DNA of 64,000 nt from Acetoanaerobium noterae (GTDB lineage Bacteria; Bacillota; Clostridia; Peptostreptococcales; Filifactoraceae). The notes below the pieces were generated by a model. That model had not been told where the DNA came from. It worked only from the letters and a program-made list of their open reading frames with translations, and made no database searches. Position 1 is the stretch's first letter; each line of letters opens with the position of its first letter. Positions 21,368-50,829 of the stretch are shown here, one piece after another. Position numbers and translations under genes: made by a program. The DNA is taken from contig NZ_FUYN01000001.1 of NCBI RefSeq assembly GCF_900168025.1, positions 496,001 to 560,000 of the forward strand, written 5' to 3'.

Positions 21368-21548
21368 ACAAAACCCAGGATGCCGTCATTGCCCAAATTC
21401 AATACCCGAGATCAACCCAGGTGGGTACTTTGTTGTTAATTTCAGAAGTCCTTCTTCAGGCATTTCTTCCACTACCAAACTATAAAGTTCCCGTATAAAA
21501 TATGTCGGTTGAATTTAAAGCTGATAAACGAACACCCCAGGTTCTATA
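21368..21548 (-). ncRNA. ssrS: 6S RNA
   Basis: On the minus strand the region starts near AACCTGGGGTGTTCG and ends with GACGGCATCCTGGGTT. These ends pair along the whole 11-bp closing stem (AACCTGGGGTG with CATCCTGGGTT, three wobbles). The pattern matches the closing stem of known 6S RNAs (E. coli: CUGAGAUGUUCGC with GGCGGCAUCUCGG). Inside, AACCGACATATTTTATACGGG resembles the 5' side of the central bulge, and a long imperfect helix follows. At about 180 nt the size is right. 6S RNA mimics an open promoter and sequesters sigma-A RNA polymerase in stationary phase. Exact ends are estimates from the promoter and terminator. Confidence 0.85.
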
Positions 21549-30206: not shown

Positions 30207-31001
30207 TTACTTGTCAAAACATATATATTTTTCAACAAAGCCCTCTAGGCCTTGCTCTCTTATATATTCCCACTTAAACATAAAATATTCCTCCAAAAGG
30301 TAAAACATCGTCAAAATAACCTTTGCACTATCTTTATCATACTCTGTGGACACTGCAATATTATTAAATCTATCAAAAAATGCTTTTGTATCATCGCTAA
30401 ATAGCTCATTATAATTGCTGTCCAAAGTCTCTAGCACTCTAATAATACCACAATGAACTCTATTTATATCTTTTTGTTTATTCATAGCCTTATCAATATC
30501 AAAAACCTCAGAAATTTCGTCAATGTCTTTGTCCTGTAAAAAATAGCTCAGTGGAACCTCCTTATAGCAGCTTTCTATTTTGCAGCAAAGATGGTCATAT
30601 ATAGTATGTCTTCTATCCATATTTAAAGCAGCTACAAGATTAAATAAATCATTTTTTTGCATAGTATCTGGATACAGCTCCAAATTTGCAAGAGCCTTTG
30701 CGCAAATCACATATTTAATTGAATCATTTCTGAAATTCCTTATCCAATTAAAATATTTTTCAGTGTTACCCTCAAGTAGTATTTGTTTATTTTGAAACAC
30801 TATATCGATAAGCTTTTTAGCTTTATCGCTAGCCTTACTGAATAGCCCTGATAAATCACCATCTTCATTAAGCAGCTGATTCATTAATAGAGCTAACTCG
30901 CAAACCTCTTCGTCCGCTTGAGCTTTTGCCAATAGATAAATCATATAGGTTTCTTCCAAAGTAATGTCTGAAAATCCAGCTTTCAAAACATTTTTAAACA
31001 T
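30207..31001 (-). CDS. hypothetical helical protein, divergent from the multidomain operon
   Basis: A 264-residue protein with no signal peptide or membrane segment. It is mostly alpha-helical, with charged helices and several Cys/His residues (RRHTIYDHLCCKIESCYKE near 130-147). I do not recognise a family. GGGGG lies upstream of the ATG. It shares a 90-base intergenic region with the 1594-residue gene on the other strand, and downstream on its own strand comes the CNNM-type gene. It may belong functionally to either neighbour. Confidence 0.6.
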   Translation of the reverse strand: MFKNVLKAGFSDITLEETYMIYLLAKAQADEEVCELALLMNQLLNEDGDLSGLFSKASDKAKKLIDIVFQNKQILLEGNTEKYFNWIRNFRNDSIKYVICAKALANLELYPDTMQKNDLFNLVAALNMDRRHTIYDHLCCKIESCYKEVPLSYFLQDKDIDEISEVFDIDKAMNKQKDINRVHCGIIRVLETLDSNYNELFSDDTKAFFDRFNNIAVSTEYDKDSAKVILTMFYLLEEYFMFKWEYIREQGLEGFVEKYICFDK

Positions 31002-31091: not shown

Positions 31092-34000
31092 ATGAAAAGC
31101 CTGCTAAATAAAATAAAGGGATTGATATATTCACAGGATGTCATTTCACTACTTGATTCTCATCATGAGATATTAAAAACCATAGCTCAATCTGAAGAAT
31201 ATAAGACAACTTTGATAGAAATGGAAAAAAATCTTGAGTTTTCATACTCAAAGCTAAAAAATCTCTTTACACCTTTGTTAAATTCGTACAATTATCCTGA
31301 ATCGTCAAATTTTGAAAAGGATTTGTATGAATACGTACTTGCCCTGTCATTTCCTGACAAATTTTCCTATGATAGTAAATTTCTTAATTTGTATAAATTT
31401 TTTATGTTAATTCTTAGAGAGCTTTACTCTCAAGAAAAAGATTTAGACGCAGAATCAAATCTTTCAAAATATAAAGTTGAGCTTTTAGATGAAGATGAGT
31501 TTTCTCATTACGAATCTTCTGCAGAATACTCAACATTTATCCAGTCATATTACAATCTATATATCTATGAAGCCATGAGGCTAGGATTGGAATTCAAAGG
31601 ATTTAATACAATTGACCATGTAATTATGATTCATCACTTAGCAACTTTTATAGGCAAGCAAATGACATCAAAGCATGTAGAAATAGATTTAGGGAAGGTT
31701 TCAGCTGCCTCAATGGGGCATGATATAGGCAAATTCGGTTGCATAGGCGACGAGGTCTCTAGAGTTCCTTATCTTCACTATTACTATACTGATAAATGGT
31801 TTAAGGATAATGCTATGCCTATGATAGGTCATATAGCTACTAATCATTCTGTTTGGGATATTGAGCTTGAAAATCTTCCTATAGAATCCTTAGTTCTTAT
31901 CTATTCCGATTTTAGAGTAAAAAATGATGCAAAGGGAAAAATGAATATTTTTTCTTTAGACGAATCCTTCGATGTAATTCTAGAAAAGCTAGATAATGTC
32001 GACGAACAAAAAACTATCAGATATAAAAGAGCCTATGGAAAGCTCAAAGACTTTGAGAACTATTTATTATCCTTAAATATAGATATCCTAGATGAATCAA
32101 AGCCTAAAATAAGTGCAAAGCCCAAGCCTTATGCTTTATTATTTGACCAGGAAATCACTGATAACCTCAAATTTTATTCAATATCTAAAAATATAACCAT
32201 AATGCATCTGCTTAGAAGTGAAGCTTCACTAACTCATTTGCTGGAATACGCAAGAACAGAGCGCAATCCTCTTAGACTCAGAGAGTATATAGACGTATTT
32301 AAGGAATACTCTACTCACCTTTCACAAAAGCAAAAACTACTTATGATGAAATTCTTGTTTGATATGACTGTCCATCATGAAGAAGATATTCGAATAGAAT
32401 CAGCCACCTTCCTAGGTAAGCTCATATCAAATTTTGATGAAGAATATAGAAAAGAGCTTCCTAAAAATGCCGTTATAGATAATCCAGAAACCAATGCTCT
32501 AGAATTATTTTCTCAGTATGCTACAAAAATGATAGAGCCCAATATAAAAACTATTCCTATTCACAAAAAATGGCTCGGGCTTTCTTTTGCTTACTTTATC
32601 AAAACAGTGTCCATATATATACCAGATGGCTTAAGAACTGACTTTGAAAATTCATGTGCAAAACTACTAACTAATCACGCAGGTGAAGAAAATCAAATCA
32701 AATATTTATTGCTTGCACTTATCAGCATAGAGTTAAGAAATGAAAATACTCTTAATGATGCTTTATTCTTAGCTCTACATTCTATAAAAAGTGAAAATGA
32801 AGACATCAAAGCCCTAGCCTTGCTCCTACTAATAGGCTACAGACATAAAATAACAAAAGACAGCGTGCTTTATTCCACAATAGAAGAAAGCCTTCAAAAC
32901 AATATAGGTAATCTTGACAATATTTCATTTAATTATCTTTCTCTAGAGCTTTCTAAAGCACTTGGCATAAGAGATTTAGAATATCTCTATGAGCAAGCTA
33001 TGCAAAGCACTAAAAGTAGACTTTCAGAAATATTTTTAAACAATCTCAAAAGTGCTACTTCGTTTATTCAAAAAATCGTACACATTGACATTTTGAAAAA
33101 AAATGCCCTCGAAAACATCAACTATATGGGCGCATATACAGCTATGCACTTTTGCAATATTTTAAAGGTCAGCGAAATAGAAATAGTAAGAACAAAAGCT
33201 GGGCATTCACTTATTGAGATTTTCCCTCACTTGAATATTGAGCAAAGAAACGATATAGCGATAGAGCTCATACGTTCACTTGAGATGCAAGATTATAAAT
33301 TTGCAAAGTTCATACCTCATTATCTAGGCGAAATCCTGCTTTACATCTCTCCTAAGGAGTTTGATGAGATATTAGATGATTTTGAAATGAATATTAAGAC
33401 ATCAGAATCAAACATAGTATTTCTTATCTTAAAAACCTTAGGAAGATATATCTCTTTATATAGTAGATATTACGAAAACTATCCTCAAGAAAGCAGGAAT
33501 TACAAAAGCCTGTTTCGTATAGTTGGAATCCTCATGTGTGCTTTAGTCCACTATGAAAAGAAAGTGAGAAGAGCAGCTTTAGAAGTGATTTCAAAGGATA
33601 TCTTCGATTGCCTTACTATAGATGAGGCCTTAAAAGCATCCATATTTAAAAAAATGGCTAAAAAAATGTTAACCCTGCTTCCTCCAAAAACAGACGATAT
33701 CGGTCAGCTCAGCATAGGTTCAAGCATGAATAGAATTTATAGATATATCTGCGAGTACGAGCTTGAAAATGGAGCTGTGGAGTATGAAAACAAAAAAAAC
33801 ATTGCATTCTTCCCTGGAACCTTTGATCCATTTACCTTAGGTCATAAAAGCATCGCAAAAACTATTAGAGATATGGGGCTCGAAGTCTACCTTTCTGTAG
33901 ATGAATTTTCGTGGTCAAAAAGAACTCAGCCTCACATGATAAGAAGAGAAATAGCCAGAATGGCTGTTGCTGATGAATTTGATATCTATCTTTATCCTAG

Positions 34001-35876
34001 TAGCATGCCTGTAAACATAGCTAATGACAAGGATGTAGACCACCTTGTAAATAATTTTCCTAATCGAGACGTACACATGGTCACTGGAAAGGATGTAATA
34101 TACAACGCTTCAGCCTATAGAGGAGATTATAAAATCAGAGAGCTTCCTCATATAGTTTTCGAAAGAGAAGACATGCAGCTTCCTAAAGATGCAAATGAAC
34201 AAGAGGATTTCAAGCAATATCTAAAGAAACCATATACCTATGTTCAGCTAGATGATGCATTTACTCATATTAGCTCAACTCTTATAAGAAGCTGTATAGA
34301 CCAAGATAAAGATATTTCAAACATGGTAGACCCTCTTTGTGAAAAGTATATCTACGACAAAGGTCTGTATAAAAAAGAACCTCTATTTAAGTCTGATGCT
34401 AAAGAAATAAATAGAAGAGTTGAAATCTACAAGCATCCGCCTAAAACTATAATAGCCAAGCTAGCTCAGAGCTTTGCAGATGTAGATTTGGATAAGCTTT
34501 TTGCTTTCATAGATGATGAAAACACAAGATGTATAGCGCTTCTAAACGATCATTCTAGTGAAGTACTAGGTTTTTCAGTATTCAAGTGGCTTCCATCAAC
34601 TAGCATATATTCAAGATTTGAAGATAAAACTGTATGTGACTTTATTAGAAATGTATATGTAGGTAGAATCGTGCACCTAGGCGGAATATTTGGAAATAAA
34701 GAAACAATGACTATACTATTTACAGAAACCCTGACATATTCACTAGGCAAGGACTACACCTTCATGATTTACTCAAATGAAACAATGTCTAGCGAAAATA
34801 AAGCTTTAGAAGAAATTATAACGCTTAGTGGCTTTACTCATATTCAGAGTCGAAAATCCATCTACTACGTCAATATGAGCAACCCGTGTACTTTAAACTT
34901 GGACCTTGAAAACTTTATTAAAGAGCCGTTTTTAAATAACGATAAAATACAGTCTACTATTGAAAGCACTAGAACAAATCTTCAGACTGCTATTGCAAAG
35001 CTCTATCCAGCAAATCTAATTATTCCTTTTGACAATAGGATGTTCAAGGAAAAATTAATTGCTAAAATTTGTGAGGAAAATCAAGTGCCACACACACCTA
35101 CTGTACCAAGAAAATTAGGTGAAAAAATCTGTGTACCTTTTGGACACATACTTTCAAAGCTAATTATTCCTAATACCGTGTCAAAATCGCTTCACACAGA
35201 AAAAATATTCAACAAAGATTTGAGTGGCTTTACTGTTAGAGCCTATCCATTTTATCTATCTCTAGATAAACAGGTAAAAACCATCAAATCTTTTGCTAAA
35301 GAAGTAATCCTTGTGGATGATATTTTGAACAAAGGATATAGAATCAACGCTCTAGATCCAATACTAAAAAGACAGAATGTCAAAGTGTCTAAAGTAATTG
35401 TAGGCATATTAACAGGCAAAGGCAAAGAGCTTATGGAAATCCAAGGCAGAGATGTGGACAGTGCGTATTTTATTCCAAAATTAAACGTATGGTTTAACGA
35501 GGGAATCCTCTATCCGTTTATTAGCGGAGATGGAATTGAGGATGCTAACTTAATAGGTTCAATGATTCCATCTATTAACCTCATACTTCCATACACCTCT
35601 CCACACTATATTAAAGATACAAATGCTCATGATTTATATAACTTCTCTATGACTTGCCTTGAAAATGCTTATGCCATATTAAAGAGCTTAGAAGAAGTCT
35701 ATGAAGAGCTGTTTGAGAGAAGACTCACAGTTTCTGCATTAAATGAGGTTTTGGTCTACCCTAGAGTAGTAGACTATGGCAACAACTTGGAGTATTCAAA
35801 AAATCAAACTCCGTCATCATATGTACTCGATGATATAGAAAGGCTTAAACGACTTAAAAAAATGATACTAAAGTAG
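31092..35876 (+). CDS. multidomain protein: HD hydrolase, helical repeats, NadD-like nucleotidyltransferase, GNAT-like and phosphoribosyltransferase domains
   Basis: A 1594-residue protein, large for this window. An HD domain (about 170-290) carries H176, the H210-D211 pair (MGHDIGK), H247, H252 and D273. Residues 340-890 form an alpha-solenoid of HEAT-like helices (DIRIESATFLGKLI, EIVRTKAGHSLIEI, KVRRAALEVI). A NadD-like nucleotidyltransferase domain (about 900-1090) has FPGTFDPFTLGHK with G917-H918 and the motif SSTLIR at 1061-1066. About 1115-1265 looks like a GNAT acetyltransferase. The C-terminal third (about 1330-1560) has a PRPP-type loop VILVDDILNKG (1405-1415). AAGGAGG precedes the ATG. 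Domain calls rest on motif reading. The combination suggests nucleotide-cofactor metabolism; the reaction is unknown. Confidence 0.75.
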   Translation: MKSLLNKIKGLIYSQDVISLLDSHHEILKTIAQSEEYKTTLIEMEKNLEFSYSKLKNLFTPLLNSYNYPESSNFEKDLYEYVLALSFPDKFSYDSKFLNLYKFFMLILRELYSQEKDLDAESNLSKYKVELLDEDEFSHYESSAEYSTFIQSYYNLYIYEAMRLGLEFKGFNTIDHVIMIHHLATFIGKQMTSKHVEIDLGKVSAASMGHDIGKFGCIGDEVSRVPYLHYYYTDKWFKDNAMPMIGHIATNHSVWDIELENLPIESLVLIYSDFRVKNDAKGKMNIFSLDESFDVILEKLDNVDEQKTIRYKRAYGKLKDFENYLLSLNIDILDESKPKISAKPKPYALLFDQEITDNLKFYSISKNITIMHLLRSEASLTHLLEYARTERNPLRLREYIDVFKEYSTHLSQKQKLLMMKFLFDMTVHHEEDIRIESATFLGKLISNFDEEYRKELPKNAVIDNPETNALELFSQYATKMIEPNIKTIPIHKKWLGLSFAYFIKTVSIYIPDGLRTDFENSCAKLLTNHAGEENQIKYLLLALISIELRNENTLNDALFLALHSIKSENEDIKALALLLLIGYRHKITKDSVLYSTIEESLQNNIGNLDNISFNYLSLELSKALGIRDLEYLYEQAMQSTKSRLSEIFLNNLKSATSFIQKIVHIDILKKNALENINYMGAYTAMHFCNILKVSEIEIVRTKAGHSLIEIFPHLNIEQRNDIAIELIRSLEMQDYKFAKFIPHYLGEILLYISPKEFDEILDDFEMNIKTSESNIVFLILKTLGRYISLYSRYYENYPQESRNYKSLFRIVGILMCALVHYEKKVRRAALEVISKDIFDCLTIDEALKASIFKKMAKKMLTLLPPKTDDIGQLSIGSSMNRIYRYICEYELENGAVEYENKKNIAFFPGTFDPFTLGHKSIAKTIRDMGLEVYLSVDEFSWSKRTQPHMIRREIARMAVADEFDIYLYPSSMPVNIANDKDVDHLVNNFPNRDVHMVTGKDVIYNASAYRGDYKIRELPHIVFEREDMQLPKDANEQEDFKQYLKKPYTYVQLDDAFTHISSTLIRSCIDQDKDISNMVDPLCEKYIYDKGLYKKEPLFKSDAKEINRRVEIYKHPPKTIIAKLAQSFADVDLDKLFAFIDDENTRCIALLNDHSSEVLGFSVFKWLPSTSIYSRFEDKTVCDFIRNVYVGRIVHLGGIFGNKETMTILFTETLTYSLGKDYTFMIYSNETMSSENKALEEIITLSGFTHIQSRKSIYYVNMSNPCTLNLDLENFIKEPFLNNDKIQSTIESTRTNLQTAIAKLYPANLIIPFDNRMFKEKLIAKICEENQVPHTPTVPRKLGEKICVPFGHILSKLIIPNTVSKSLHTEKIFNKDLSGFTVRAYPFYLSLDKQVKTIKSFAKEVILVDDILNKGYRINALDPILKRQNVKVSKVIVGILTGKGKELMEIQGRDVDSAYFIPKLNVWFNEGILYPFISGDGIEDANLIGSMIPSINLILPYTSPHYIKDTNAHDLYNFSMTCLENAYAILKSLEEVYEELFERRLTVSALNEVLVYPRVVDYGNNLEYSKNQTPSSYVLDDIERLKRLKKMILK

Positions 35877-35883
35877 GTGACCT

Positions 35884-37149
35884 ATGAAATATTTCAAAAC
35901 TAATAGCAAAGTGTTATGCATTCAAAATGAAGCCATAGAAAAAGCGTTTCAAAGCTTATTATCAGATTCTAATCTAATTGAATTTCAGAATATCGAGGAG
36001 TCTGATGACATCTATTATTTTACTATTCAGCCTAAAGGTGATTTTAGACGTTCATTCCTACTAGATAGCATAGGCTTAATGAATGCTGATAAAGAAGATA
36101 TATCTCTTCTTTATCAGCAAGAAGCTGGTGATATTCAAAATAATATAGATCCAGATTTTCTGAGCTTAATAAAAGCTCAAAGAGTGATGAGCATTAATTT
36201 ATCTCATCCAAATTGGAAAGATTGCTTAGGTAATAATCCTCTTCCAGCCTCTAAACCTATACACCTTAACATAGTAGGTCTAGGAGATGTAGGCGGAACG
36301 CTTCTTACAGGGCTGAAGCTTACAGGAGGTAACCATATCTCAACTATAGGCATCTACGATAAGGATGAAAACAAAATGCTTCGCTATGAACAAGAGATGG
36401 AGCAAATTCACTTTGACGGACTAAGTATGCCAAAGGTTATTCGCCTAGATGAAAATGACATCTTTGATTGTGATGTGCTCGCATTTACAGTAGCTACCTT
36501 TATTCCTCCAGTTGGCAGTGAAATAAAGGATGTACGAATGGCTCAGCTAGAACAAAACTCTAAGATACTAAAAATATATGCAAAAAAAGCTAGAGAAGCT
36601 AAGTTCAAAGGTCTTTTTGCCATTCTTTCTGACCCAGTAGACCAGCTATGCAGAGTTGCCTATGAACAAAGCAATACTGATGATTCTGGAACCAAAGATT
36701 ACCTAGGTCTAGCAAGCGACCAAATCAAAGGGTATGGACTAGGAGTGATGCATGCAAGAGCAGTATATCACGCTAAAAGAAATCCTGCTTTAGCTTCGTA
36801 TTTAGAAGAAGGAAGAGCCTATGGCCCTCACGGAAAAGGTCTAATCATAGCAAATAGCATAGATAATTACGATGAAGACTTAAGTGAGCAGCTTACTCAG
36901 CTTGCTCTGCACTCAAATTTAGATGTAAGAGCCACAGGCTTCAAGCCTTATATTGCACCTGCTCTGTCTTCAGGCTGTCTTAGCCTCCTAGCCACAATAA
37001 GAGGTGACTGGCATTATAGCTCAGTGTTTATAAACGGGAAATTCTTAGGCTGTAAAAATAGGCTTACTAAAAGCGGTGTCCAAATAGAAGCTTTAGCTTT
37101 GCCTGAAAAGCTAATAAACAAACTAGCTGTTACTTTTTCTGATTTATAA
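35884..37149 (+). CDS. malate/lactate dehydrogenase-superfamily-like protein
   Basis: A 421-residue protein. Residues 1-125 are an extra N-terminal domain I do not recognise. A Rossmann fold begins at 126 (IHLNIVGLGDVGGTLLTG) with the glycine loop at 132-138 and D159 at the end of strand two, which favours NAD. The segment AILSDPVDQLCRVA matches the NPVD region of malate/lactate dehydrogenases, and HARAVYHAKRN follows. Whether it catalyses a 2-hydroxyacid reaction is not clear. It starts 8 bases after the 1594-residue gene with GGTGA before it, so the two are tightly coupled. Confidence 0.72.
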   Translation: MKYFKTNSKVLCIQNEAIEKAFQSLLSDSNLIEFQNIEESDDIYYFTIQPKGDFRRSFLLDSIGLMNADKEDISLLYQQEAGDIQNNIDPDFLSLIKAQRVMSINLSHPNWKDCLGNNPLPASKPIHLNIVGLGDVGGTLLTGLKLTGGNHISTIGIYDKDENKMLRYEQEMEQIHFDGLSMPKVIRLDENDIFDCDVLAFTVATFIPPVGSEIKDVRMAQLEQNSKILKIYAKKAREAKFKGLFAILSDPVDQLCRVAYEQSNTDDSGTKDYLGLASDQIKGYGLGVMHARAVYHAKRNPALASYLEEGRAYGPHGKGLIIANSIDNYDEDLSEQLTQLALHSNLDVRATGFKPYIAPALSSGCLSLLATIRGDWHYSSVFINGKFLGCKNRLTKSGVQIEALALPEKLINKLAVTFSDL

Positions 37150-37184
37150 TATAGACAACTGGTTAACCTAGGGGGAATAGAACA

Positions 37185-38231
37185 ATGCTATATATATTTT
37201 CATCGGATTCACCTTCAATCCAGCTCTCAGAAATGATTAATGCTTTTTGTCATTCTTATTCTGACTTTAAATTTGTAGCTCTAGATAATCTTCCTTCACT
37301 AAAGCAACATGACAAAGTCCTATTTGCCTGGGAAGCTGATATCTGCGGTGTTGATACTAGTATTTTAAAGCTCATTCACAAAGCATATTTAAGCTCGCCT
37401 AAATTTTTTAGTGGCTGCAAAGGCTCTATCCTATGCTTTAGCAAGACGATTTTTTACACAAAATATTTTTCAAGCCATATAGCATTTTTGACAAACAACA
37501 TGGGTCTAGAATTCATCGGAAAGCCTATGGTCGAAGCTATAGAAAGCTATAATAATTTCAAAAACAAACAAAGGCTGAACAATATATCTTTAAAACAGCT
37601 GTGCCTCGAAGAATGTATGAATCTAGGCAAAAGGCTAAAAAATGACAAGCATGAATTAAATCAAAACCCTAAAATAACTGCAGTTCATGCTAGTCACATA
37701 GATAGGTCAAACACCTATGCTCTTATGAAGCTGATATTAGATAACCTATCTATTGAAAAAAGCATATTTTCATTAGCTGAGGAAAGAATAATGGACTGCC
37801 GAGGCTGTGACTTTGAGCAGTGCATGAATTTTTCTAATCACGGCGTGTGCTATTATGAAGGTGACAAGCTAAAGGATATATTCAAATCTCTTGATTCATC
37901 ACAGGCCCTAATTGTTGCCTGTCCAAACTACAACGACTCTATGCCAGCAAACTATTTCGCCATGATTAACAGGATGACCTATATTTATAGACAAAAGGAT
38001 TTTTCTGATAAATACCTCTACGCTATTATCGTATCTGCAAACTCAGGTTTCGACATGGTTGCAGGGCAAATAATATCAGCTTTTTGCTTTAATAAAGGAT
38101 TTAGGCTAGCTCCGAACTTTGCTCTTATGGAGCAAGCAAATGAACCTCTTTCAATATTAAACCTTCCTCATATAAACCAAAGTATGAGTAAGTACGCTAA
38201 GGATTTAGAACAAAAACTAAAAGAAAATTAA
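37185..38231 (+). CDS. FMN-reductase-like flavoprotein with an N-terminal extra domain
   Basis: A 348-residue protein. The C-terminal half (about 168-348) is flavodoxin-like: ITAVHASHIDRSNTYALMKLIL matches the FMN-phosphate loop, then CRGCDFEQCMNF and GVCYYEGDKL, then ACPNYNDSMPANYFAMINRM. The cysteine set (C-x2-C-x4-C, then C) recalls iron-sulfur flavoproteins. The N-terminal 165 residues are of unknown fold. It is the third gene of the operon, 35 bases after the dehydrogenase-like gene, and is followed by a terminator. Probably an NAD(P)H- or ferredoxin-linked reductase; the substrate is unknown. Confidence 0.75.
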   Translation: MLYIFSSDSPSIQLSEMINAFCHSYSDFKFVALDNLPSLKQHDKVLFAWEADICGVDTSILKLIHKAYLSSPKFFSGCKGSILCFSKTIFYTKYFSSHIAFLTNNMGLEFIGKPMVEAIESYNNFKNKQRLNNISLKQLCLEECMNLGKRLKNDKHELNQNPKITAVHASHIDRSNTYALMKLILDNLSIEKSIFSLAEERIMDCRGCDFEQCMNFSNHGVCYYEGDKLKDIFKSLDSSQALIVACPNYNDSMPANYFAMINRMTYIYRQKDFSDKYLYAIIVSANSGFDMVAGQIISAFCFNKGFRLAPNFALMEQANEPLSILNLPHINQSMSKYAKDLEQKLKEN

Positions 38232-40078: not shown

Positions 40079-40441
40079 TTAGATGCTCTTGGGCATATCT
40101 CTAGTTGCAACTATATCTATCCCTGTCCCAGCTACATCCTTAACTATAACATCGCCTAAAAATACTGGAGCTTCTACTACTACAGAATTGATTTGAGTCA
40201 TAACGTCAAATATCAAGTTTTTAGGAATTGGCTCTGCTGTCTTTACAGGAACTAAAGCTAAAAATCCATTTTCTACTCTTACAGTAGATGTAACCATTCT
40301 TCTAGGATCATCTAACTCTTGAAGTGCATATTTTTTGCCTTTTGGGCAAGTATGTCCTTCTATGATATAACCATTTTCTGTTTCCTCTATCTGAAGCCTG
40401 CACCCCATAGGACAGGCTATACAAGTCAATTCACTATGCAT
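40079..40441 (-). CDS. DUF1667 domain protein
   Basis: A 120-residue protein with an N-terminal cysteine motif LTCIACPMGCRLQIEE and a fourth cysteine in HTCPKGKKYALQE, as in DUF1667. The cysteines probably bind an iron-sulfur cluster. The family is nearly always encoded with FAD-dependent glycerol-3-phosphate oxidoreductase genes, as here. It overlaps the upstream oxidoreductase by 8 bases and is the last gene of the glycerol cluster. A role in electron transfer is inferred. Confidence 0.88.
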   Translation of the reverse strand: MHSELTCIACPMGCRLQIEETENGYIIEGHTCPKGKKYALQELDDPRRMVTSTVRVENGFLALVPVKTAEPIPKNLIFDVMTQINSVVVEAPVFLGDVIVKDVAGTGIDIVATRDMPKSI

Positions 40442-41687
40442 GTTTTTCGCCCTCCACTTCCACAGTTATTTCTCCAGACAAATCTTTTATAAGCTCATTA
40501 TTAAGTACTATATTAATCATCTCTGAAGGTATCATATGCCTCATTTTCTTAGAAAGTATCTCTTTATTATCGCATTTTACTATAACTTTTGAATCTTTAT
40601 ATATTCCATCTACACGCATATATAGATTTACATCCTCTTCGCTGTTTAATAGTATTTTGTGAGGCATAATATATCTTATTCCTTTATTGCTTTTTGTAGA
40701 TACATAGCTGTCCTTATTTAGGCTCTGTCTTACATAATAGGCTGCGTTTTTACCAGCTATTCTGCTTTCTTTAGTTACAAAATCAACTATATCGTGTACA
40801 TGAAGCACATTCCCACAAGCAAAAATTCCATCCACTTGAGTGTGCATTTTACTATCAACTATTGGACCATTAGTAATTTTATCAATTGCTATCCCTGCTT
40901 TTTGAGATAGCTCATTTTCTGGTATTAAGCCAACAGAGAGCAGTAAGGTGTCACATGAAATAAATTCCTCAGTGCCTTTTATAGGTCTTCTATTTTCATC
41001 AACCTTTGAAATTGTAACTCCATTTATCCTGTCTTTTCCATGAATCTCGTGGATGTTGTGAGATAGCATCAAAGGGATATCATAATCCTCAAGACACTGT
41101 GCTATGTTTCTATAAAGTCCACTAGAATATGGCATAATCTCAACGACAGCCTTTACCTTAGCTCCTTCGAGAGTCATTCTTCTCGCCATAATTAAACCTA
41201 TATCTCCAGAGCCATATATAACTACTTCCTTGCCTACCATATAGCCTTCCATGTTTATAATTCTCTGAGCCATTCCTGCTGTATATACTCCAGCTGGTCT
41301 GTAGCCGTTTATTGCAATAGCTCCAGCGGTTCTTTCTCTGCATCCCATAGCAAGCACAACAGCACCTGCCTGTATTTCCATAATTCCTTGCTCTCCTAGT
41401 GCTATTATATTTCTCTCATCATCTATATTCAAAACCATGGTGTTTAGCATTATTTCTATATCAGATTTTTTAGCCTGCTCTATAAATCTCTGTGCATATT
41501 CTGGTCCTGTTAATTCTTCTTTGAACTCATGAAGTCCAAATCCATTATGGATACACTGATTCAAGATGCCACCAAGTTCTCTATCTCTTTCTATTATAAG
41601 GACTGAGTTTGCTCCGCTTTTTTTTGCTTCTACAGCCGCTCCTAGTCCAGCTGGTCCTCCTCCTATTACGACTACTTCATACTTCAT
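40434..41687 (-). CDS. FAD/NAD(P)-binding oxidoreductase of the glycerol cluster
   Basis: A 417-residue pyridine-nucleotide-disulfide-like flavoprotein. It opens with the FAD loop VVIGGGPAGLGAAVEA and has a second dinucleotide loop VVIYGSGDIGLIMARRMTLEGA. The segment DGIFACGNVLHVHDIVDF near 290 contacts FAD. A C-terminal extension of about 90 residues is present. No redox-active CxxC is seen. Its ATG overlaps the TAA of the preceding gene (TAATG), so the two are coupled. It probably passes electrons from the glycerol-3-phosphate oxidoreductase to NAD(P) or another carrier. Confidence 0.88.
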   Translation of the reverse strand: MKYEVVVIGGGPAGLGAAVEAKKSGANSVLIIERDRELGGILNQCIHNGFGLHEFKEELTGPEYAQRFIEQAKKSDIEIMLNTMVLNIDDERNIIALGEQGIMEIQAGAVVLAMGCRERTAGAIAINGYRPAGVYTAGMAQRIINMEGYMVGKEVVIYGSGDIGLIMARRMTLEGAKVKAVVEIMPYSSGLYRNIAQCLEDYDIPLMLSHNIHEIHGKDRINGVTISKVDENRRPIKGTEEFISCDTLLLSVGLIPENELSQKAGIAIDKITNGPIVDSKMHTQVDGIFACGNVLHVHDIVDFVTKESRIAGKNAAYYVRQSLNKDSYVSTKSNKGIRYIMPHKILLNSEEDVNLYMRVDGIYKDSKVIVKCDNKEILSKKMRHMIPSEMINIVLNNELIKDLSGEITVEVEGEKHA

Positions 41688-43129
41688 TACCTGTCACCGC
41701 CTTTAATCTTTGAGTCTACAAGGGCTGAACCGTGATTTTCCTTAACTAGCTCTTCTATAGGTATGTTTAGCTCTCTAGATAGAATCTCCATAACCCTAGG
41801 TGCACAAAATCCTCCCTGACATCTTCCAGAGCCTGGTCTTACTCTTCGCTTTACTCCATCAAGAGTTCTAGCTCCTGCTGGTCTTTTTATAGCCTCTATT
41901 ATCTCTCCTTCTGTTATACTCTCGCATCTACAGATTATCTTGGAATATTTAGGATTTTGCTTTAGGATTTCTTTCTTTTCTTCAAGACTCATATGCTCAA
42001 ATCCTAAAATAGCCTTTCTCTTAGGATTAAATGATGGATTCTCTTCTAATTCAAGTCCCTGTTCATTAAGTAGCTTCGCTACATACTTGGCAATAGCAGG
42101 TGAAGATGCTAAACCCGGAGAGTCTATTCCTCCAACATTTATAAACCCTTTGGCATTTTTTGAAGGATAAATCACAAAATCTTTTTTATCACTAGATGCT
42201 CTCACTCCTGCGAAAACTCTTATGCTCTGATTCAGAGGAAGATTCGGTATTGATTTTCTTGATAGCTCATCAACTTTCTCAATTCCTGAGCTTGAAGTTG
42301 TAGTATCTTCAACACTATCAACATTATCTGCTGTCGGCCCTACTATTATATTTCCATGTACAGTAGGTGCCACCAATATCCCTTTACCTACCTTAGTAGG
42401 TGCCTGAAATATAACCTTTGTAACATTATCTCCTGCGTTTCTATCTAAAATTCTATATTCTCCTTTTCGAGGAAGAATTTCGAATTCATTGTCTCCTATA
42501 AGATTAGCAATTTTATCTGAATATAGACCTGCTGCATTTACTATGTATTTTGTTTTATATTCTGATTTTGATGTTGTAATTTTAAATCCTTCATCTAGTT
42601 TCTCTATAGACTCAACCTTCTCACTTGTTTTTAGCTCTACATTATTCTCTATAGCGTTTTCAATCAAAGCAAAGGTCATATTAAAAGGACATACTATTCC
42701 AGCACTACTACAATAAAGTGCTCCTATAACTTCTTTTGATAAATTCGGTTCAAGCTCTCTAGCTCTATCTCCATCTACTAGCTCCAAGCCTTCTACTTGG
42801 TTGTTTAGCCCTCTTTTGTATAAAACCTCAAGTTCCTTCATTTCTTCTTCATTAAATGCAACAACTAGCGAGCCTATTCTATCAAAAGAAACCTCTAGCT
42901 CTTCTGTAAGCTGAGAGTAAAGCTTGTTTCCCCATACATTTAGCTTAGCCTTTAAGCTGCCCTCATATGCATCATAGCCTCCGTGAACTATGGCACTATT
43001 CGCCTTGGTCGTCCCCTGACAAACCTCTATGTTTTTTTCTAAAACTAGAGTCTTAAGCATATATCTAGATAGCTCTCTAGCAATGCTAGCTCCTACTACC
43101 CCTGCTCCTATTATTGTAACATCATACAT
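41687..43129 (-). CDS. FAD-dependent glycerol-3-phosphate oxidoreductase (GlpA-like)
   Basis: A 480-residue DAO-family flavoprotein that oxidises glycerol 3-phosphate to dihydroxyacetone phosphate. The FAD-binding loop is VTIIGAGVVGASIARELSRY at the N-terminus. The DAO domain runs to about 355. The C-terminal BFD-type [2Fe-2S] domain has four cysteines (CRCESITEGEI, then CQGGFCAPRV). I use the ATG at 43129 because GGAGG lies 7 bases upstream. A strong terminator stands between glpK and this gene, so expression probably needs antitermination. Confidence 0.88.
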   Translation of the reverse strand: MYDVTIIGAGVVGASIARELSRYMLKTLVLEKNIEVCQGTTKANSAIVHGGYDAYEGSLKAKLNVWGNKLYSQLTEELEVSFDRIGSLVVAFNEEEMKELEVLYKRGLNNQVEGLELVDGDRARELEPNLSKEVIGALYCSSAGIVCPFNMTFALIENAIENNVELKTSEKVESIEKLDEGFKITTSKSEYKTKYIVNAAGLYSDKIANLIGDNEFEILPRKGEYRILDRNAGDNVTKVIFQAPTKVGKGILVAPTVHGNIIVGPTADNVDSVEDTTTSSSGIEKVDELSRKSIPNLPLNQSIRVFAGVRASSDKKDFVIYPSKNAKGFINVGGIDSPGLASSPAIAKYVAKLLNEQGLELEENPSFNPKRKAILGFEHMSLEEKKEILKQNPKYSKIICRCESITEGEIIEAIKRPAGARTLDGVKRRVRPGSGRCQGGFCAPRVMEILSRELNIPIEELVKENHGSALVDSKIKGGDR

Positions 43130-43162
43130 CGTTACGCCTCCTAAACTATGTCCAAAATTCAA

Positions 43163-43197
43163 AAAATGGAGAAAAAGCCTAAGCTTTTCTCCATTTT
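43163..43197 (-). terminator. intrinsic terminator/attenuator ahead of the glycerol-3-phosphate oxidoreductase
   Basis: AAAATGGAGAAAAAGC pairs with GCTTTTCTCCATTTT around a short loop. On the minus strand it ends in a U-rich run, 33 bases upstream of the start of the oxidoreductase gene and 24 bases past glpK. The placement matches the Bacillus glpD leader, where GlpP antiterminates. It may also be a partial terminator for glpK. Confidence 0.75.
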
Positions 43198-43221
43198 CTA
43201 ATAAGCTTTTGTTAATATATT

Positions 43222-44730
<1,509 letters not shown>

Positions 44731-50476: not shown

Positions 50477-50829
50477 GGGGATGTAATGGTTTCGACGGGG
50501 TCTTGAAGGTACGGGTAGCGAGTCGTGTAACTCCTCTTTATCACGTAAAACTATGGGGAACTTAAATTAAACGCAAACGAAAATTACGCTTTAGCGGCTT
50601 AGTTGCTGCTCGTTTTCACCGAGATTCCTACGACTTGGATGAAAACGTCAGATAGTAGGGCACTGCTTTGTGGATATCTGGACATAAAGTAGAATAATTC
50701 AGATGTAGCTGATAGGGAGCTTAGTTGTTGGGGCGCCAAGGAAGCGAAATTTAAATTCAACGACTACACTCGTAGAAGCTTTTATTGAATGGATTTCGGA
50801 CACGAGTTCGATTCTCGTCATCTCCACCA
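50477..50829 (+). ncRNA. ssrA: transfer-messenger RNA
   Basis: The 5' end GGGGATG and the 3' end CATCTCCACCA form a 7-bp tRNA-like acceptor stem with the CCA encoded. The T-arm segment GAGTTCGATTCTC lies near 50802-50815. The 5' part has the tmRNA hallmark TGTAATGGTTTCGAC. The tag reading frame is at 50573-50602: GCA AAC GAA AAT TAC GCT TTA GCG GCT TAG, giving ANENYALAA, to which the charged alanine is added. Size (353 nt) is normal. It rescues stalled ribosomes with SmpB, which is not in the window. Confidence 0.97.

Follow-up and report, generated by a model that had tools for sequence, protein, structure and literature searches.

Three genes of Acetoanaerobium noterae form an operon whose first product, a 1594-residue protein, joins an HD domain, a HEAT/ARM solenoid and NadD-like, GNAT-fold and phosphoribosyltransferase (PRTase)-like domains. 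The operon occupies positions 31092 to 38231 of a 64,000-nucleotide window, the whole stretch of DNA analysed here (contig NZ_FUYN01000001.1, positions 496,001 to 560,000). We put at about one in three the probability that it encodes a single module that synthesizes and edits a dinucleotide resembling nicotinamide adenine dinucleotide (NAD), includes two redox partners and is linked to glutamate.

The genes are separated by 7 bp (genes 1 and 2) and 35 bp (genes 2 and 3). A preliminary description, made from the sequence alone, had outlined the three open reading frames (ORFs) with exact coordinates, strand and lengths. The motifs it quoted are all in place: H210-D211, GTFDPFTLGH, SSTLIR and VILVDDILNKG in gene 1, GLGDVGG in gene 2 and the cysteine cluster of gene 3. 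Its observations are thereby confirmed, and its interpretation is partly supported. The features, with the evidence for each, are as follows.

31092..35876, + strand: gene 1 (1594 amino acids) with HD, HEAT/ARM solenoid, NadD-like, GNAT-fold and PRTase-like domains; ORF, family alignment, AlphaFold.
31617..31910, + strand: HD phosphohydrolase core of gene 1, residues about 176-273; ligand-type residues H176, H210, D211, H229, H252 and D273.
32199..33770, + strand: HEAT/ARM-type helical solenoid of gene 1, residues about 370-893; AlphaFold, fold comparison.
33792..34395, + strand: NadD-like adenylyltransferase domain of gene 1, residues about 901-1101 (PGTFDPF..HK, ISSTxIR); Pfam, fold, hhalign.
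34407..34877, + strand: GNAT-fold domain of gene 1, residues about 1106-1262, without the acetyl-CoA P-loop; fold comparison.
34944..35681, + strand: type I PRTase-like domain of gene 1, residues about 1285-1530, with the PRPP-loop-like motif VILVDDILNKGYR; sub-threshold PF00156, hhalign.
35884..37149, + strand: gene 2 (421 amino acids), a lactate/malate-dehydrogenase-like oxidoreductase; ORF, Ldh_1_N, profile alignment.
37185..38231, + strand: gene 3 (348 amino acids), an FMN_red-type flavoprotein with four invariant cysteines; ORF, FMN_red.

The three genes are inherited together. Among 59 relatives, genes 1 and 2 are both present in 33 and both missing from 26, with no split cases. Gene 3 accompanies them in 31 of the 33 carriers (the G032 contig stops short of gene 3) and is likewise absent from the 26 non-carriers. 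The same 16 of 196 Clostridia genomes hold all three genes. Loci were also collected with an alignment-based query; of the 68 named ones whose downstream flank is long enough, 58 have genes 2 and 3 close downstream of gene 1. No fourth gene is constant beside the set, and neighbours otherwise vary. The linkage on which the preliminary description had made its proposal depend therefore held. Full-length homologues of gene 1 share 34-63% identity in the family alignment; their existence and the conservation of catalytic residues exclude a chance origin.

Several lines of evidence define the NadD-like domain of gene 1. CTP_transf_like matches above the Pfam cut-off (5.6e-7), and NadDs of related genomes align with hhalign at E 1.6e-15. 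We built two AlphaFold models of gene 1, each from a 60-sequence family alignment. The C-terminal one (residues 890-1594; mean confidence pLDDT 89.5, pTM 0.89) superposes its NadD-like fold on M. tuberculosis NadD 4rpi with Z 18.3 and a root-mean-square deviation (rmsd) of 2.5 over 184 residues. Per-residue conservation was counted in 78 non-redundant full-length homologues, and the motif residues F911, D912, P913, F914, H918, S1062 and R1066 are identical in every one. The domain thus shares fold, GTFDPF..H and ISSTxIR with NadD/NMNAT enzymes, and Pfam, fold and both catalytic motifs agree with its original recognition. In a set of 103 sequences, full ISSTxIR is absent from L031 and L035 (IRSSLIR), L038 (IGSIQLR) and the unlinked copies L046 and L048. 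The equivalog specific for nicotinic acid mononucleotide (NaMN), TIGR00482, is not reached (44.9 against a cut-off of 112.45).

The HD domain, also named in the preliminary description, has nearly invariant metal ligands. The region spans residues about 170-290 and has the complete H...HD...H...H...D ligand set of HD superfamily phosphohydrolases. H176, H210, D211, H229 and D273 are identical in 78/78 homologues and H252 in 77/78. With E values up to 1 allowed, 32 of 39 family members match PF01966, the best at 2.1e-6, although the window's gene 1 sequence alone gives no Pfam HD match. In an hhalign alignment with a YqeK profile from the host's order (E 3e-3) the HD motifs coincide, but the YqeK model TIGR00488 itself, searched up to E 1, matches none of the 39 members. 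Between the HD and NadD-like domains, the N-terminal model (residues 1-893; pLDDT 88.8, pTM 0.86) predicts a HEAT/ARM solenoid that matches CAND1, PP2A-A and importins with Z up to 16.7, a similarity of fold only. This predicted fold supports the earlier proposal that the solenoid may be a scaffold.

The C-terminal domain is likely descended from type I PRTases and has a putative activity of that kind. Compared by hhalign with a canonical profile of 15 HPRT/PyrR-type proteins, it scores E 6.5e-4 and its VDD motif falls opposite theirs, while no unrelated pairing of segment and profile scored better than E 0.06. The acidic pair of the phosphoribosyl pyrophosphate (PRPP) loop follows a hydrophobic strand as expected of HPRT, PyrR and Xpt, within a similar strand/helix pattern, and is conserved (D1409 in 78/78 homologues, D1410 in 73/78). 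PF00156 matches 17 of 60 family members at E up to 0.1. An invariant PNTVTK.LHTEK-type stretch has no evident counterpart in the canonical PRTases compared. One clade (L094, L116, L125, L131, L133, L110, L098, L095 and L099) has intact HD and NadD motifs but a PRPP-loop motif that has drifted to HPGxR, a hint that the role of its PRTase part has changed. PRTases also occur in tellurium-resistance-associated systems, where the enzyme is proposed to make a nucleoside-like metabolite; unlike those systems, the operon's constant genes include no Ter-system partners.

Genes 2 and 3 encode candidate redox enzymes. Gene 2 is by homology a lactate/malate dehydrogenase (LDH/MDH) relative and an LDH-like oxidoreductase: Ldh_1_N matches at 27.1 bits (cut-off 27), the profile aligns with 4q3n at E 1.2e-10, and it carries a Rossmann GLGDVG (GxGxxG) and SDPVD. 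Invariant R218 and R292 and near-invariant H316 align with the catalytic Arg/Arg/His positions (Arg109, Arg171 and His195 in LDH numbering). Unlike lactate and malate dehydrogenases, gene 2 has an invariant Met (M289) in the column of the catalytic Asp168, lacks an Ldh_1_C match and bears an N-terminal extension of about 120 amino acids that is variable and missing in some relatives. The dehydrogenase homology that had been proposed stands, without the catalytic Asp of LDH. Gene 3 matches FMN_red (PF03358) at 3.5e-16 (59.6 bits against a cut-off of 24) and has four invariant cysteines, C205, C208, C213 and C222, which bears out the earlier view of an FMN-reductase-like protein with a cysteine cluster. 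It is probably an iron-sulfur (Fe-S) flavoprotein: it shares a flavodoxin-like fold family, an SNT loop and a compact Cys cluster with FMN_red proteins and iron-sulfur flavoproteins (Isf), and differs from them in its Cx2Cx4Cx8C spacing and an N-terminal region of about 160 amino acids. No relative of solved structure was found by sequence.

Gene 1 paralogues dissect the protein naturally. Some genomes hold an extra copy unlinked to genes 2 and 3. In G033, the linked copy L049 (L049:8163-11393, 1076 amino acids) has lost the HD region and kept the NadD and PRTase motifs, and the unlinked copy L048 (L048:6437-10090) keeps HD with a ruined NadD. HD is also kept and NadD broken in the unlinked copy of G043 (L046:5523-9893). 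The linked copy of G042, L038, has IGSIQLR in place of ISSTxIR, and its unlinked copy (L039:5427-10241) keeps NadD and has the HD ligand H252 replaced by Y. All five copies retain the PRPP-loop motif. Because the paralogues lose HD or NadD separately, the two functions look separable, with both retained somewhere in these genomes. These separate losses are a new observation.

Glutamate and ammonium genes recur beside the operon, also a new observation. Glutamate dehydrogenase of two types adjoins it, divergent upstream in L071, L074 and L112 and downstream in L059, L081, L130 and L195; the NADP-dependent enzyme is a recurrent neighbour type. Between genes 1 and 2 of L056, L191 and L192 lie a three-gene (split) glutamate synthase and an ammonium transporter, Amt (insert at L056:11720-16923 and L192:8281-13233). 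Type III glutamine synthetase (GSIII) and the asparagine synthetase AsnB stand beside the operon in L077, L078 and L123, and GSIII in L101. A GHKL kinase and YcbB-domain response regulator, a GlnK/GlnL-like pair, adjoin it in L034, L097 and L103, joined in L034 and L097 by the Na+/glutamate symporter GltS. The two lineages with this kinase, regulator and symporter set (L034:2937-5208, L097:14413-17878) are distant from each other, and the set lies upstream of the operon in one but downstream of it in the second. Altogether 15 of 112 loci have such neighbours, in roughly nine separate arrangements counted by eye.

Glutamate-type genes make up 27 of 593 neighbours within three genes of the operon and 3 of 407 further out (p 2.5e-4, an optimistic value, since the query proteins were picked after the neighbours had been viewed and the loci are not independent). 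In an unbiased Pfam count of immediate neighbours, ELFV dehydrogenase appears in 3/100 and 3/90, outranked by M16 peptidase (4) and S4/pseudouridine synthase (4; in related loci). Glutamate dehydrogenase is encoded by 58 of the 59 genomes, so only its position is informative. From this position we infer that the module functions in glutamate/ammonium metabolism.

The closest characterized precedent is a fusion of NadD with YqeK that has proofreading diphosphatase activity, its HD part hydrolysing mis-made dinucleotides (PMC9426524). As in that fusion or gene pair (e.g. Mycoplasma JCVISYN3A_0380), a NadD-type adenylyltransferase is combined in gene 1 with an HD phosphohydrolase to form a single functional unit. 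Unlike it, gene 1 places HD before NadD with the solenoid between them, adds GNAT-fold and PRTase-like domains, and is accompanied by two redox partners. The host also keeps its own canonical YqeK (G000:C5), which implies that gene 1 is specialized and does not serve housekeeping NAD synthesis. The host YqeK, the paralogue splits and the glutamate/ammonium context are additions to the preliminary description. We found no paper on this gene set among the open-licence papers searched, which leave out most subscription journals.

A pathway from PRTase through the NadD-like domain to HD is the most economical reading of gene 1, and the nucleotide or cofactor pathway first proposed survives in this form; its substrates, the order of its steps and its cellular role we infer. 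The PRTase-like domain would make or bind a ribonucleotide from PRPP and some base. Using ATP, the NadD-like domain would adenylylate a mononucleotide and so yield a dinucleotide similar to NAD; incorrect or excess (di)nucleotide would be hydrolysed by the HD domain, in much the way that YqeK edits NadD. The solenoid would hold the domains together and probably dock the partners. NAD-linked gene 2 and gene 3 may use the product in redox reactions or help form its base, and the whole would serve glutamate/ammonium metabolism or its redox balance. A bolder and less probable version is that the product is a new NAD-like dinucleotide, a cofactor or signal that anaerobic Clostridia make, edit and use through this module and that is tied to glutamate/ammonium metabolism.

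Several observations weigh against this synthesis-and-editing module. The base-stacking Trp of NadD is Tyr1009 in gene 1, and PPHK is replaced by FSWSK (SWSK in the aligned column); these base-site changes suggest a different or relaxed base, and the substrate may not be NaMN. Pribosyltran PF00156 stays below its cut-off in gene 1 (7e-4; 19.4 against 26.3 bits), the PRPP loop has KG where TG is usual, and the Foldseek and VIA lists for the C-terminal model are filled by NadD matches and so do not bear on the PRTase fold. The PRTase domain originally proposed keeps its motif in register, weakened by the sub-threshold score, an hhalign value of E 6.5e-4 and the Lys in place of Thr. The GNAT domain is left unexplained by the pathway. 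Its fold matches acetyltransferase 9mto (Z 13.6, rmsd 2.3 over 123 residues in the AlphaFold model), as the proposed acetyltransferase-like domain would have it. Acetylation itself is doubtful because the acetyl-CoA loop Q/RxxGxG/A is absent from the domain's consensus and examples. The window operon has no adjoining glutamate gene, most homologues have other neighbours, and carriage does not correlate with 2-hydroxyacyl-CoA dehydratase, glycine/proline reductase or sporulation genes.

It is doubtful, in our judgement, that the operon instead repairs or salvages NAD(P)(H), with HD removing damaged dinucleotides, PRTase and NadD rebuilding them and genes 2 and 3 re-oxidizing or reducing abnormal NAD(P)H, and equally doubtful that it would in this way protect cells with heavy flux through NAD(P)-glutamate dehydrogenase. 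YqeK has a precedent in metabolite damage control (PMC9426524), and the redox partners, the recurrent NADP-glutamate dehydrogenase neighbours and a canonical YqeK in parallel would all suit repair. The set, however, includes no known repair enzyme of the NAXD, NAXE or renalase type, and the altered base site favours a different base. If instead the product were derived from glutamate or a 2-oxoacid, gene 2 would interconvert oxo and hydroxy acid, gene 3 would reduce it and gene 1 would adenylate or ribosylate it into a nucleotide-linked metabolite. The LDH catalytic Arg and His positions, the glutamate neighbours and a GNAT fold that might accommodate an acyl or amino-acid group fit such a route, which the loss of the catalytic Asp and the lack of export or tailoring genes around three constant genes, with no larger cluster, make unlikely.

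A regulator of nitrogen status is similarly improbable. Its NadD part would adenylylate a protein or small messenger and its HD part would reverse this, while the solenoid recognized such targets as glutamate dehydrogenase, glutamine synthetase or glutamate synthase and genes 2 and 3 were sensors or targets. A writer and an eraser in one chain recall the logic of GlnE/GlnD, the solenoid is of the PP2A-A/importin class, and the neighbours include glutamate dehydrogenase, GSIII, GltS, Amt and GlnK/GlnL-like genes. To our knowledge, however, no NadD-type enzyme modifies proteins; the conserved PRTase motif would be left unexplained, and the redox partners are conserved as strictly as gene 1. Very improbable, finally, is the view that gene 1 serves chiefly as a scaffold and that its enzyme domains have decayed. 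The lost GNAT loop, the variable PRPP loop and the broken NadD (L038, L046, L048) or HD (L049) copies would agree with decay; near-invariant HD and NadD active sites across 78 diverse homologues are not expected from it.

Carriers of the operon come from soil, digester and human or animal gut lineages. Among them are Alkaliphilus, Geosporobacter, Caloramator, Sedimentibacter, Anaerovorax, Oscillibacter, Proteiniclasticum, Anaerotignum, Clostridium and Megasphaera, and metagenome-assembled genomes labelled Flexilinea and Atribacteria. A link to sporulation was rejected (SpoIVA in 13 of 33 carriers and 6 of 26 non-carriers, p 0.26), as was one to amino-acid fermentation (2-hydroxyacyl-CoA dehydratase p 0.76, GrdB p 0.23, in the 59 relatives). 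Among phage records tblastn gave no match, which speaks against phage origin, and the comparison with known defence systems gave just a weak ShosT match (0.0016) to the PRTase part. L190 (NZ_CP154629.1), 2.63 Mb and almost unannotated, is labelled plasmid pTPELB2 of Acetoanaerobium noterae and looks like a chromosome in a plasmid collection.

Around the operon, the window holds a divergent 264-amino-acid ORF upstream (30207-31001, - strand) without a Pfam match; upstream sequences from five sources contain no riboswitch at the Rfam gathering threshold. A probable glycerol-type operon (40079-44721, - strand) comprises an FGGY kinase, two oxidoreductase-like ORFs and a small Cys-rich protein, with a Pfam basis for the kinase only. 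A 6S RNA lies at 21368-21546 (- strand) and a tmRNA with the tag ANENYALAA at 50477-50829 (+ strand).

The operon is a 7-kb, strictly co-inherited and undescribed metabolic module found across Clostridia. Its first gene combines the steps of a complete route from base to dinucleotide to editing, and the paralogue splits show which of its parts can be tested alone. If the proposed chemistry is true, a cofactor resembling NAD, or a new level at which glutamate and redox metabolism are controlled, would have been overlooked in abundant anaerobes.

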